Below are positions 26,920 to 33,959 of a stretch of DNA of 64,000 nucleotides, one piece after another. The stretch is taken from NCBI RefSeq assembly GCF_003350205.1, contig NZ_QLLC01000014.1, positions 1-64,000 on the forward strand, in the 5' to 3' direction. Within the stretch, counting starts at the first letter, position 1. The number at the start of each line of letters is the position of its first letter. A program made the position numbers and the translations under genes. Below the pieces are notes generated by a model. The model worked only from the letters and a program-made list of their open reading frames with translations. It had not been told where the DNA came from and ran no database searches. Source of the stretch: Brevundimonas bullata. GTDB taxonomy: Bacteria > Pseudomonadota > Alphaproteobacteria > Caulobacterales > Caulobacteraceae.

Positions 26920-27764
26920 GGCTCGCGCCTGCGATAGATCTTCTCTTCCGGGACGAAGTCGGCAAAGGCGCCGGCGTGCCGCGAGAAGCGCAAGCTCTCC
27001 TTGGAACCGATGCCCAGGAAGCCGTTGCGAGCCAGCGAGTCCTTGAATAGGCCGACGGCGCGATCCTGCAGCGGGCGATCAAAGTAGATCATCACATTGC
27101 GGCATGAGATCAGCTGCATCTCGCCGAAGACGGCATCCGACACCAGGCTATGGTCCGAAAAGACGACATTGGCCCTCAGGGACTTGTCGAACACCGCCCG
27201 ACCGTAGTCGGCCGTGTAGTAGTCCGACAGCGAGGTGCGACCGCCTGACTTCTGGTGATTTTCGGTGAACTTTCGGATGCGATCCAGCGAATAGACGCCG
27301 GCCTCCGCCGCCCGCAGCGCGTCAGGATTGATATCCGTGGCGTAGAACATCGTCCGGTCGAACAGGCCCTCCTCACGGAACAGGATGGCGAGCGAATAGA
27401 CCTCTTCGCCGGCGCTGCATCCCGCGATCCACACCTTCAGGGAAGGATAGGTTCTCAGATGCGGCAGCACCTGCTCTCGCAGAGCCCGGAAATAGGCGGG
27501 GTCACGAAACATTTCGCTGACCTGGACCGTCAGGAAACCCAAAAGCTGCGGCAACATCTCCGGGTCGTGCAGGACGCGCTCCTGAAGCGCCGTCAGACTC
27601 GGCAGCCCGAAATGGGTGCGCGCCTGGAGCAGGCGGCGCTTGATCGAGGCTCGCGCATAATGACGGAAGTCATAGTGATAACGCTGGAACAACGCCTCCA
27701 GCAGCAGCTGGATCTCTATGTCTTCCACCTCGTGGGGGGCGACCGGACTCAACGCGGCATCCAT
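26916..27764 (-). CDS. cheR: CheR-type protein-glutamate methyltransferase
   Basis: 282 aa. N-terminal CheR domain (about 10-75) and SAM-binding domain (about 80-275) with WIAGCSAGEEVYSLAI (the GC.SGEE-like motif), ATDINPDALRAAEAG and SCRNVMIYFD. Methylates glutamates of receptor proteins with SAM. It overlaps the end of the giant kinase gene by 16 bp and cheB by four, so the four genes are certainly one operon. Confidence 0.92.
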   Translation of the reverse strand: MDAALSPVAPHEVEDIEIQLLLEALFQRYHYDFRHYARASIKRRLLQARTHFGLPSLTALQERVLHDPEMLPQLLGFLTVQVSEMFRDPAYFRALREQVLPHLRTYPSLKVWIAGCSAGEEVYSLAILFREEGLFDRTMFYATDINPDALRAAEAGVYSLDRIRKFTENHQKSGGRTSLSDYYTADYGRAVFDKSLRANVVFSDHSLVSDAVFGEMQLISCRNVMIYFDRPLQDRAVGLFKDSLARNGFLGIGSKESLRFSRHAGAFADFVPEEKIYRRREP

Positions 27765-30700
27765 ACGCGTACGAGCGACAGCAGCTTGTCCACATCCAGG
27801 GGTTTGGCCATGTAGTCGTTGGCCCCCGCCGCAATACAGCGCTCCTGATCGTCTGGCATGGCCTTGGCCGTCAGCATCAGCACCGGCAGGTCGCGCCAGC
27901 GCGGGTCCTTTCTCAGCTCTCGCGTGGCGGTCAGGCCGTCCATGACGGGCATCATGACGTCCATCAAGACCAGGTCGATGGATTGCGCCGGATCTTCAGC
28001 AGACCGTTCCAGCCGCTCAATGGCCTCCTTGCCGTTGCGCGCGATCTCGATGCGGGCGCCGCGCGGTTCCAGCACATTGGTCAGGGAGTAGATGTTGCGC
28101 ACATCATCCTCGACGATGAGAATCTTCCGCCCTTCCAGCACGGCGTCGCGGTGGCGGGCCTTGCGGATCATCTTCTGCTGCTCGGGCGGCAGTTCCGACA
28201 CCACCTGGTGCAGGAAGAGGGAGACCTCGTCCAGCAGCCGTTCAGGCGATTTAGCGCCCTTGATGATGATGGAGCTGGAATAGCGGCGTAGCTGCTGCTC
28301 GTGTTCCGGGGACAGGTCGCGGCCGGTATAGACGATGACTGGCGGGTAGCCCTGCCCGCTCTCGCGGCTGAGCGTCTCCAGCAGAGAGAATCCCGACGCG
28401 TCCGGCAGGGTCAGGTCCAGCACCATGCAATCAAAAGTCTGGCTCTTGAGTTGCTGCAGACATTCCGCCGCTGTCCCGACGCCGACCGTCTCCACATCCC
28501 TGGATTCAAGCAGCTTGCTGACCGCCTCGCGCTGAACCACGTCGTCCTCGACGATGAGGACACGACGCATCGTCCGCGTCAGCTTTTCCTCCAGCGAACG
28601 AAGCACATCGGCCAGGGCCTCGCGCGCCACCGGCTTCATCACATAGCCGATCGCTCCGAGCGACAGGGCGGTCTGGCTGTGATCGTCGGCAGAGACGACA
28701 TGGATAGGAATATGGCGTGTCTCGTCGTCGCGCTTGAGCACGTCCAGCACCGTGAGGCCGGACTGGTCCGGCAAACCGATGTCGAGCACCACGGCGTTGG
28801 GGCGATAGCGCTTGGCCAGCTTCACGGCCTCCTCCGCCGTGCCTGCCAGAATGCACTGGAACCCCATCTCCCGGGACAGGTCGCGGACAATGGCGGCGAA
28901 GCGGTCGTCGTCCTCCACCACCAGGAGCAGGCGACGCGCCCCCGCCAGATGATCGCGATCGTCATCCAGGGTCCGGGCCAAGGGCCTGGCTTCCGCCGCA
29001 ACGGGCGTTGAAGCCGGCGAAGCCGCAGCGGGCGATCCGGTCGGCGCCTCTCGCGGCGCCACGCGCGCGGCGTCATAGGTGCGCGGCAGGGTCAGGGTGA
29101 AGACGCTGCCCTCGCCCGGCCGGCTTTCTAGGCGGATACGCCCCCCGAGCAGACGGGCGAGTTCGCGTGAGATGGACAGGCCCAGGCCAGTCCCGCCGTA
29201 GCGCCGGCTGATGGTGCCGTCCGCCTGCTGGAAGGCCTCAAACACGCCTTTCTGCTGGTCCGGGGCGATGCCGATGCCCGTATCCGAAACGGCGAAAGCC
29301 ACTTCATCAGAACCGACGGCCGAAACTGACAGCGTCACCTTGCCCTTCTCGGTGAACTTGAAGGCGTTCGACAGAAGGTTCTTCAGGATCTGCTCAAGCC
29401 TTTGGCGATCCGTCTCAAGCACGTCATCGCCAGATCCCAGGTCGATCTCGAAGGTGAGGCCGCGCTCGTCAGCCACCGGCTGGAACGTCTGCCGGATGTC
29501 GTCGCCCAGGCGTTGCAAGGACACCGCCTCAGGGCGCGCCTGAATATGGCCGGCCTCGATCTTGGACAGGTCGAGGATGTCGTTGATCAGGGTCAGCAGA
29601 TCATTGCCCGAGGACTGGATCGTGCGCGCGTACTTGACCTGCTCCTCCGACAGGGTCTCGTCGGGATTGTCAGCCAGCAGTTTCGACAGGATCAGAAGCG
29701 AGTTGAGCGGCGTGCGCAGCTCATGGGACATGTTGGCGAGGAAGTCGGACTTGTACTGGCTGGCCTGCTCCAGCTCTCGCGCCTTGAGCTCCAAGGCCGC
29801 CGATCCGCGCTCCAGATCATCGCGCTGGGTTTCCAGCACCTGAGCCTGCTCCTCGAGCTGGCTGTTGGTCTGTTCCAGTTCCGCCTGCTGCTGTTCCAGA
29901 CGCACCTGGGATTCCTTGAGGGCGCGTCCCTGCTCTTCCAGTTCCTCGTTCGAGACGCGAAGCTCTTCGCTCTGGACCTGAAGCTCCTCGGACTGGCGCT
30001 GGGTCTCCTCCAGCATGTCCTGCAGTCGGGCCCGATAGCGGGCCGACCGCAAGCCCGTGCCGATCAGCGGCGCCGTCTCCTCCAGCAGCGCCATGAGGCG
30101 ATCATCGGGGAGACGCAGGAAGCCGAGTTCGAGCACGGCGTTGATCTCGCCGTCAGCCCGGCCCGGAGCGATGACGAGGTGTCGGGGTTTGTCGCGTCCC
30201 AGCGCCGAGCCGATCGTCAGATAGCCCTCAGGCACGTCCGACACCGTCAACGCGCGCCCTTCGGCGGCGACCTGCCCCAACAGGCCTTCGCGCGGACCGA
30301 AACGCGCCGGGATCGGCGCGTCGGCCGGAACGCCGAGCGCGGCGACTCGCCGAAATACGCCGCCCTCTCCCTTGAAGAGGGCCGCCGCCTGAACATCGGC
30401 ATACCGCGCCAGATAGGCGAGAATGCTGTCGGCCAGTTGCTCGACCGACTGGTCGCCCATCATGGCGTCCGCCAGACCGACCTGGCCCTTGTGAATCCAC
30501 TCCTGTCGGGCCCTTTGACGGGCGCTGCGCCGGATGAGGGCGTAGATGGCCAGGGTCAGGGCGGCGCCAAGGAGGCCGGAGAGGACCCCGCTGATCAAGG
30601 CAGTGGTGTAAGCGGCGTCCATTTCCTCGAGGCGCGCGAGGCGGAGCTTCTGCTCCTCCTGCCTCATCAGGTTCACCTCGGCCCTGATGGCGTCCATCTC

Positions 30701-31168
30701 CGCCTTGCCGCGATCCGTGTTCATCCTGGCCACGGCAGCCTGTAAGCCTTCGGCGCGGCGCGTCTGGATCGTGGCGTCCAGCTCGGTCATCTTCGCGTCG
30801 ACGTGTCTGCGAACCTGCCGCACATGGGCCTGCTGCACCGGATTGTCCTGGGTCAGAACGGCCACATCCTCCAGGCGGCGGCTCACGGCCGCCGAAGCCA
30901 GCTCGTAGGGCTGAAGATAAAGAGGATTGCCGGTGAGTAGATATCCTCGCTGTCCGGTCTCGGCGTCCTGAACCGTTCCCAGGAGTTCGTCGACGGCGAC
31001 GATGACCTTATGCGTGTGAATGATCTGCTGGTTGTTCGCCCGCAGAACCTGGACGTTGAACCAGGCCACCGTGCTCGTCGCGAGGAAAAAGGCCAGAACC
31101 AGACCCAGCCCGATTGTGGACAAGGCTTCGGCCCTCGAGCCCGGAGACGGGCGACGGAACGACTTCAT
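27749..31168 (-). CDS. Giant hybrid histidine kinase: CHASE3-GAF-coiled coil-HisKA-HATPase-three receivers
   Basis: About 1139 aa. N-terminal membrane anchor (about 14-38), extracellular CHASE3-type sensor (about 40-185; TGQRGYLLTG), second membrane segment (about 190-215), GAF domain (about 225-375), Glu/Gln-rich coiled coil (about 380-475), HisKA with His in MSHELRTPLNS near 480, HATPase (about 590-710), then three receivers (about 770-885, 890-1005, 1020-1139) with Asp in VVLDIGLPDQSG, MVLDLTLPDASG and VLMDVMMPVMDG. The ATG at 31166-31168 is preferred over the upstream start at 31228. The architecture resembles kinases that gate general stress or chemosensory phosphorelays. Its coding partners cheR, cheB and the receiver-kinase overlap it. 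Confidence 0.93.
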   Translation of the reverse strand: MKSFRRPSPGSRAEALSTIGLGLVLAFFLATSTVAWFNVQVLRANNQQIIHTHKVIVAVDELLGTVQDAETGQRGYLLTGNPLYLQPYELASAAVSRRLEDVAVLTQDNPVQQAHVRQVRRHVDAKMTELDATIQTRRAEGLQAAVARMNTDRGKAEMDAIRAEVNLMRQEEQKLRLARLEEMDAAYTTALISGVLSGLLGAALTLAIYALIRRSARQRARQEWIHKGQVGLADAMMGDQSVEQLADSILAYLARYADVQAAALFKGEGGVFRRVAALGVPADAPIPARFGPREGLLGQVAAEGRALTVSDVPEGYLTIGSALGRDKPRHLVIAPGRADGEINAVLELGFLRLPDDRLMALLEETAPLIGTGLRSARYRARLQDMLEETQRQSEELQVQSEELRVSNEELEEQGRALKESQVRLEQQQAELEQTNSQLEEQAQVLETQRDDLERGSAALELKARELEQASQYKSDFLANMSHELRTPLNSLLILSKLLADNPDETLSEEQVKYARTIQSSGNDLLTLINDILDLSKIEAGHIQARPEAVSLQRLGDDIRQTFQPVADERGLTFEIDLGSGDDVLETDRQRLEQILKNLLSNAFKFTEKGKVTLSVSAVGSDEVAFAVSDTGIGIAPDQQKGVFEAFQQADGTISRRYGGTGLGLSISRELARLLGGRIRLESRPGEGSVFTLTLPRTYDAARVAPREAPTGSPAAASPASTPVAAEARPLARTLDDDRDHLAGARRLLLVVEDDDRFAAIVRDLSREMGFQCILAGTAEEAVKLAKRYRPNAVVLDIGLPDQSGLTVLDVLKRDDETRHIPIHVVSADDHSQTALSLGAIGYVMKPVAREALADVLRSLEEKLTRTMRRVLIVEDDVVQREAVSKLLESRDVETVGVGTAAECLQQLKSQTFDCMVLDLTLPDASGFSLLETLSRESGQGYPPVIVYTGRDLSPEHEQQLRRYSSSIIIKGAKSPERLLDEVSLFLHQVVSELPPEQQKMIRKARHRDAVLEGRKILIVEDDVRNIYSLTNVLEPRGARIEIARNGKEAIERLERSAEDPAQSIDLVLMDVMMPVMDGLTATRELRKDPRWRDLPVLMLTAKAMPDDQERCIAAGANDYMAKPLDVDKLLSLVRVWMPR

Positions 31169-31376
31169 CAGCAGTCTGACCTCAGGTGAACGACGAAAGC
31201 CTTCCTGCCTAGAGGTCGCAGCCGCCAACGCAATAACCTGTGTTGGTTTTTCTCAAGCCACGCCGGTCCTTTCCGCGCTCGCTCCTTCCTGCGCCCCGCC
31301 GACGCCCGCCCAAAAGCGTTACGACAGCAGCGATGCATCTGCGCCGATAAGACGTCGGCTCAATCGGGCGAGATGA

Positions 31377-31401
31377 GGAACCCTTCGGCTGCAAAGTCGT
31401 T
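31377..31401 (+). promoter_or_regulatory. Strong EcfG (SigT)-type stress promoter
   Basis: GGAAC (31377-31381), 16 bases, CGTT (31398-31401): an exact match to the EcfG consensus used by SigT in Caulobacter and RpoE2 in Sinorhizobium. The start of transcription would be near 31408, only about 20 bases before the GTG of the small gene. Confidence 0.7.
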
Positions 31402-31427
31402 TGAGGCCGCAACTTTAGGAAAGTCGC

Positions 31428-31679
31428 GTGATTTCATACTATTGCATCGTTAACATGCCCGGCGTCCCGGCGCGGGAAATCCGAGTCCTGGACGCCAGAG
31501 ACGACGCCTCGGCGCGTAAGGCCTTAGATCCCGTCATGGCCGAGTGGTTCGGCTTCTCTACCCTCTGCCTCTATCATGGCGAACGCCTGATCGAAGTGCG
31601 CAGCAATCCCGATCTCGGCTTCCCGTCCGAGCCCCTCATGCCGTCCCTGATGCAGGAAGGGCTGGACGTCGCTGCGTGA
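31428..31679 (+). CDS. Small stress-regulated protein, 83 aa, unknown function
   Basis: I do not recognise the family. The protein is soluble, acidic in the second half, with a beta-rich opening (MISYYCIVNMPGVP) and a WFGFSTLCLYHGERLIEVRS core. The GTG start has an AGGA site 8 bases upstream. The near-perfect stress promoter directly in front strongly suggests it is a member of the general stress regulon. Divergent from the giant kinase gene. Confidence 0.7.
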   Translation: MISYYCIVNMPGVPAREIRVLDARDDASARKALDPVMAEWFGFSTLCLYHGERLIEVRSNPDLGFPSEPLMPSLMQEGLDVAA

Positions 31680-31718: not shown

Positions 31719-33803
31719 TCAGGCCAAGGTTCGTACGGCTGGCTCCCGCGCCCACTGACGCGTGCGGGCCGGCGGCAGGAAGTCCGCTGCCTTCGCCGCA
31801 GACAGGTCGACGACTCCCTCGTCAGGCGTGATTCCCGCTCGGTCCAGAAGCGGTCGAGCCTCCGACGTATGGCCGATGGCCTTGAGATGACCGAAGGCGT
31901 CCCGAAGGAAGTCCACAGCCGCCGCCTCGTTCAGGAGTTGGGCGCATCCCTCGTCTGACAGGACGACCGCGACCGCATCGAAGAGCACCGAAGGGCTTCC
32001 CGCCAACTGGCCGTCGACGGCCAGCGTGGAGCCGTCAGCCAGCGTCGCTCCGCCGACCTTGGGCGCGACGATAAACACCGCCCCACCGTCGCCTTCCACC
32101 GCCTTGCGGACGCCCGCGACCACGGCGCCGTCAGACCCGTCAGCCACCAGGATCGCGACCTTGCGGCCCTTCAGCGTGTCCGGATATTTGCCGACGATCC
32201 TGAGGGCGGGCGACGGCTCCAGATCGATCGGATCGACCGCGGGTTTCGCGGCCTGGGGCAGCGGCAGGTTCAGCCCGTTCGCCACCCGTTTCGCCAGGTC
32301 TTCATCGACATTACGCAGATTGGCCACGACCCGGTTTCGCACATGGTCGAGGGACACCTTCGAGAGCTCGAACACGATGGCGCTGGCCAAATGGGCCTGC
32401 TCGATCTCGGTCTGCGAACGGAAGAAAAGCCGCGCCTGGCTGTAGTGGTCGGCGAAACTCTCAGCGCGCAGCCGGACCTTCTCGCCCTCCATCGTCACGG
32501 CGGCGGTGCGGAAGCCGCCCTGCGGGTCCTCGCGCGGCCCGCCCTCCTCGCCCGCCTCGGCCAGACTGTTGGGTTCATAGTTGGCGCGTCCCTTGAAGAC
32601 CTGAGTCTGCATGTGGCCGTCGCGCTGGAAGTTCTGGAAGGGACAGCCCTTGGCCTGGTTGATCGGGATCTGGTGGAAATTGACCGTTCCCAGACGCGAC
32701 AACTGCGTGTCCTGGTAGGAGAAAAGCCGGCCTTGCAGCAGGGGATCTTCCGAGAAGTCGATGCCGGGCACGATGTTGGTCGGCAGGAAGGCGGCCTGTT
32801 CGGTTTCAGCGAAGAAGTTGTCCGGGTTGCGATTCAGCACCATGCGGCCAATGACCCGAAGCGGGTGCGTCTCCTCGGGGATCAGCTTGGTCGCGTCGAG
32901 AATATCAAACGGCAGGGCGTCCGCCTCGGCCTGGCTCAAGAGCTGAACCGCGAACTCCCACTCCGGGAAATCGCCCTGATCGATGGCCTCGAACAGATCG
33001 CGGCGGTGGTAATCCGGGTCGGCGCCGGCGATCTTGACCGCCTCGTCCCAGCAGGTCGACTGGGTGCCCAGCTTCGGGCGCCAGTGGAACTTGACGAAGG
33101 TCGCCTCGCCCTTGGCGTTGATCAGCCGGAAGGTGTTGACCCCGAACCCCTCGATCATGCGCAGAGACCGCGGAATCGCCCGGTCGGACATGGCCCACAT
33201 CACCATGTGCGTGCTTTCGGGCATCAGGCTGATGAAGTCCCAGAAGGTGTCATGAGCGCTGGCCGCCTGAGGATAGCCGCGGTCCGCCTCCATCTTCACC
33301 GCATGGATCAAGTCCGGGAACTTGATCGCGTCCTGGATGAAGAAGACGGGGATGTTGTTGCCCACCAAATCCCAGTTGCCTTCGGTCGTGTAGAACTTCA
33401 CGGCGAAGCCGCGCACGTCGCGCGGCGTGTCCACCGACCCCGCGCCCCCGGCCACCGTCGAAAAGCGCGTGAAGACCTCGGTCTTCTTTCCGACCTCAGT
33501 CAGGATTTTGGCCGTTGTGTAGTCTTCCAGACTCTCGGTCAGTTCAAAGAAGCCATGGGCGGCCGATCCCCGCGCGTGGACGATGCGCTCTGGAATGCGC
33601 TCATGGTCGAAGTGCTGGATCTTTTCGCGCAGCACGAAATCCTCGAGCAGGGTCGAGCCGCGGCGGCCGGCCTTCAGCGAGTTCTGATCGTCGCTGACCG
33701 GCACGCCATGGTTCGTCGTAAGGCGCGTGTCAGGCGTAGAGGCGGTCTGATGAAGTTCGCCGCCCCCACCGGGGCGGGCGTCTGCTACGGGCGGCTTGGG
33801 CAT
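31719..33803 (-). CDS. katE: Large-subunit catalase (HPII / KatE type)
   Basis: 694 aa heme enzyme that dismutates hydrogen peroxide. Catalytic His in [12 protein letters not shown] (near 76), Asn in [14 protein letters not shown], heme-ligand Tyr in [14 protein letters not shown] (near 369). The C-terminal flavodoxin/GATase1-like domain (about 545-690; [15 protein letters not shown]) places it in clade 2, the stationary-phase/stress type. A GAAGGAAACACC site precedes the ATG. Its upstream gap holds an outer-membrane-protein remnant; I found no GGAAC motif there. Confidence 0.95.
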
Positions 33804-33959
33804 GGTGTTTCCTTCAGTCGGGTTTGTCTGTGATGGGCTGAAATCGCGGGAGCGGGGCCAACGCCGCGAAAGGCTTCATGTCGTTCTTCCTCGTGAAACA
33901 ACGACGAGGGGGATTGAGCGTTGCACCAGCAGTGCGGCCGAGGCGGCGCCCGCTCCGGA

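Follow-up and report, generated by a model that had tools for sequence, protein, structure and literature searches.

The window (the whole 64,000-nucleotide stretch of DNA that was analysed) includes a small gene that is probably a stand-alone EcfG-induced unit and that would code for a short-lived, partner-binding small protein with a terminal Ala-Ala protease tag. In the mechanism that we propose, stress would act through PhyR to free EcfG from NepR, and EcfG-RNA polymerase would use the promoter in front of the gene, leaving a leader shorter than 26 nt before the GTG. The product would be a small soluble beta-beta-alpha-beta-beta module, probably binding another protein, and ClpXP (or ClpAP) would read the Ala-Ala end of its loose tail. 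The protein would then accumulate only while EcfG transcription outpaces degradation, and it would be removed after stress. EcfG dependence, protease turnover and partner binding are thus what we infer for this gene, which would be a compact case of double control: EcfG sets the making of the protein and a two-residue tail probably sets its removal. It would also tie a protein family that has no Pfam or NCBIfam model to the general stress response of the Caulobacteraceae, a regulon in which many members are still without a function. The features of the locus are listed in Table 1.

Table 1. Coordinates of the features discussed, numbered from the first nucleotide of the window.
Feature	Position	Strand	Details
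EcfG-type promoter	31377..31401	+	-35 GGAAC 31377-31381, 16-nt spacer, -10 CGTT 31398-31401
Ribosome binding site AGGAAA	31417..31422	+	Read from the sequence
83-amino acid gene, GTG start	31428..31679 (stop codon included)	+	Open reading frame; dN far below dS
Beta-beta-alpha-beta-beta core, codons 4-59	31437..31604	+	AlphaFold2 prediction, pLDDT ~90-95 over most of it
Variable tail, codons 62-83	31611..31676	+	pLDDT 50-68; ends Ala-Ala (codons 31671-31676), putative ClpX-type degradation tag
Hybrid kinase, divergent neighbour	27749-31228	-	CHASE3-GAF-HisKA-HATPase and three receiver domains
Catalase, convergent neighbour	31719..33803	-	PF00199, PF06628, PF18011
EcfG-like site GCAAC-N16-CGTT upstream of the catalase	33900..33924	-	Sole match in the window

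A preliminary description of this DNA had placed the promoter motif about 20 bases upstream of the GTG. The motif, the ribosome binding site and the frame were all found as described, and the distance was only close, with 26 nt separating the -10 CGTT from the GTG. In the close orthologues a comparable purine-rich motif occupies the position of the AGGAAA. Coordinates and domain matches also agreed with the divergence from a giant hybrid kinase and the neighbouring catalase that had been reported; the long convergent catalase gene lies 39 bp from the 83-amino acid gene and was taken as context, outside the unit.

Comparison with the nearest orthologue gave a dN of 0.08 and a dS of 0.42, and comparison with the next one gave values of 0.13 and 0.85. 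This pattern indicates that the 83-codon frame is a real gene under purifying selection. The closest orthologues have the GTG start in common, and the refuting outcome named in the preliminary description, a frame lost from close relatives, was looked for and not seen. Homologues were present in 49 of the 131 Brevundimonas genomes; since the majority had no match, the function is dispensable or replaceable. The closest named relative found was a B. bullata protein with 86% identity. The window's own genome also codes, on contig C10, for a 75% identical paralogue behind the same promoter; a distant relative lies on contig C8 and has no such promoter. This distant relative (G000:C8:39917-40341, L061) is convergent with, and nearly touches, a true DUF6894 gene. 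A profile search of 299 Caulobacteraceae genomes added weak relatives in other genera, a class-wide scan of 385 genomes gave matches in the window's own genome only, and none were found in the plasmids and viral contigs searched. Small YFCYI-type proteins of the Caulobacteraceae aligned with the family at 98.5% probability and have the same predicted order of structural elements. Two proteins of other Caulobacteraceae (L103 and L104, from genomes G251 and G254) have a similar small domain at the N-terminus, and the rest of the protein resembles a response-regulator receiver; for this group the profile match was partial (96% over 43 columns). Three further hits (L056-L058) were excluded from the family as response regulators. 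The genes that adjoin the family copies differ by clade and the neighbourhood therefore says little about function. Several window-type copies lie near DNA-repair genes (Ku, AlkB-like, IMS polymerase, UDG), which is no more than suggestive of what the protein does.

Residues Y4, C6, I7, V8, D26, A29, Y49, G51, E52 and R53 of the protein are conserved. The protein had been described as belonging to no recognisable family, and this held when it was compared with Pfam, NCBIfam and PDB sequences and folds, none of which returned a convincing match. The PHROGs collection gave weak, scattered matches only, the best E-value in sequence searches of solved structures was 0.094, and Foldseek gave best E-values of 0.76 against the PDB and 0.027 against a viral library, none reaching 0.001. 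In VIA-align comparisons the best Z was 6.3, for the phage antitoxin Dmd, followed by AcrIF9 and, lower, by RbcS-like domains, which is too low to assign a family or a function. Kinship with DUF6894 (PF21834), which also consists of small alphaproteobacterial proteins, was considered and rejected. One family member had a weak match to it (E 0.006), but the profile-profile hhalign probability was 1.8%, the conserved motifs differ, and the window protein itself matched nothing in Pfam, DUF6894 included. The product belongs to a previously undescribed, uncharacterised protein family, for which neither Pfam nor NCBIfam has a model. Because no catalytic signature is evident, it probably acts by binding another protein.

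The tail is predicted to be disordered and fast-evolving except at its last two residues, which are near-invariant. Identity averages 30% over the tail columns and 98% over the last two. The C-terminus is Ala-Ala in 50 of 51 proteins and Ala-Gly in the remaining one, while 12 of the 227 other proteins called around these loci (~5%; 242 proteins called minus 15 listed family members) end in Ala-Ala. As looked for in ClpX substrates, the Ala-Ala thus stands at the very end of a segment modeled with low confidence (predicted disordered). The effect that such an ending can have is known from Caulobacter CdnL, which has a half-life of 18 min, or 45 min in the presence of a dominant-negative ClpX, and of about 300-580 min when the Ala-Ala is masked or replaced by Asp-Asp (PMC5324124). 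CdnL resembles the family in being a small protein with a conserved C-terminal Ala-Ala in the same bacterial family (PMC5324124); it differs in being an RNA polymerase-binding protein, and no sequence relation is claimed. Rapid turnover of the 83-amino acid protein is suggested by analogy with it. Together with the EcfG-type promoter, the CdnL case leads us to propose a short-lived stress protein, produced on demand and acting through a partner. In Caulobacter, clearing away stress factors once the stress is over is well established, since Lon removes the EcfG-type factor SigT in the recovery phase (PMC10662116).

A terminal Ala-Ala is by itself not proof of degradation, and what the promoter shows does not depend on the tail. 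Both points would suit a protein that is controlled by EcfG but stable, with the Ala-Ala conserved for a reason unrelated to proteolysis, such as contact with a partner. However, the residues before the Ala-Ala vary in length and in sequence, which fits a tag recognised by its end rather than a shaped contact, and we consider a stable product unlikely. More doubtful still is a role of the Ala-Ala as a docking tail and not just a disposal tag, by which the protein would act as a ClpX competitor or adaptor in stress and shift the turnover of other regulators ending in Ala-Ala, such as CtrA or CdnL. No part of the tail is more conserved than its terminal Ala-Ala, and LarA, a small heat-shock protein of Caulobacter, uses its C-terminal degron to activate Lon (PMC10665427). 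This precedent means that a small protein bearing a degron may also steer its protease, and for that reason the possibility was kept. Nevertheless, ordinary ClpX substrates have the same ending, and the effect on ClpX is proposed by analogy with LarA, which ends differently and acts on Lon. Like LarA, the family consists of small alphaproteobacterial proteins; LarA is induced by stress and its C-terminal end is functional (PMC10665427), and for the family the promoter and the conserved Ala-Ala suggest the same. Compared by their C-terminal endings, the two differ: the Lon degron of LarA ends in V88-H89 and the family in Ala-Ala, and membership of the family in LarA was rejected on these endings. 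If docking were true, an EcfG-made family would redirect ClpXP, as a counterpart of what LarA is for Lon, and during stress this would shift how fast cell-cycle and growth regulators are turned over.

The consensus of EcfG promoters is GGAAC-N16-CGTT with a flexible -10 (PMC7083833). A search for orthologues and for conservation of the promoter, as the preliminary description had suggested, found the exact motif 40-90 nt upstream of 41 of 52 homologous genes, compared with 0.015 expected from dinucleotide shuffles, and these 52 genes are related sequences, so the counts are not independent trials. The exact or a near-consensus motif preceded 51 of the 52 (0.06 expected from the same kind of shuffles), the near-consensus variants being AGTT, CATT, or GCAAC with GGTT, which were allowed only after the sequences had been inspected. 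These variants resemble those of EcfG promoters in Sphingopyxis, in which the -35 is often GCAAC and the -10 tolerates variation (PMC7083833). Across 20 promoter clusters with less than 65% similarity to one another, identity averaged 98% in the nine core columns versus 46% in all others. The spacer was always 16, and the distance between the -10 and the start codon was usually 23-30 nt. In the MDVFYCLI clade the terminal Ala-Ala is retained and the promoter is absent. A second copy in genome G018 (L100, G018:C1:2763512-2763720) is split over two reading frames behind an intact promoter, suggestive of a recently formed pseudogene or of a sequencing error. At four loci (L155, L158, L159 and L162) the gene directly after the family gene, closely spaced or overlapping with it, has the motif LGDSLTAGYG; these genes are GDSL-hydrolase-like as judged by the motif only, and one promoter may serve both genes.

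The motif taken alone is not significant. GGAAC-CGTT with a spacer of N15-17 occurs three times in the 64-kb window, where 1.3 matches are expected, and the exact N16 motif occurs 37 times genome-wide compared with 27 for a reversed control pattern. A lone match is therefore within chance for window and genome, while its position and conservation among the homologues put it far beyond chance. A purely accidental motif, with a frame that is spurious or driven by another promoter, is very improbable, since what speaks for it, the chance level of a single match, is largely contradicted by the motif with its exact 16-nt spacer kept in 51/52 homologues and by purifying selection on the frame.

The same genome has the genes needed for such control. 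NepR was detected with 58.9 bits and has a sigma-like (EcfG-like) open reading frame beside its gene. PhyR was detected by a PhyR_sigma2 match of 84.9 bits (C8:242-406), a further PhyR_sigma2 match was found, and a copy of the GGAAC-N16-CGTT motif lies upstream of PhyR. With these components present, the promoter is most naturally read as one under EcfG control. The gene thus shares with the EcfG (SigT) general stress regulon of the Alphaproteobacteria the same promoter and the known kinds of variant (PMC7083833), together with NepR, an EcfG-like frame and PhyR. It differs from described members of the regulon in that its product is in no described family and its EcfG dependence is predicted from these features. 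The earlier proposal of an EcfG-type gene for an unknown protein gains support from the 20 diverged promoter clusters, from these regulatory genes and from the lack of any convincing family match, and the product is a plausible new stress effector. The paralogue, the terminal Ala-Ala and the EcfG-like site of the catalase went unmentioned in the preliminary description.

The catalase has an EcfG-like site of its own. At least one GCAAC-N16-CGTT match was contained in 25 of 100 shuffles. In B. bullata, too, the catalase is preceded by this site, which on this comparison is conserved. Between the site and the catalase ATG, the window contains a short open reading frame starting with MKP (~33815-33881, minus strand). 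B. bullata has an MKP-starting frame of different length at the same place, and the frame may be a leader peptide or may be due to chance.
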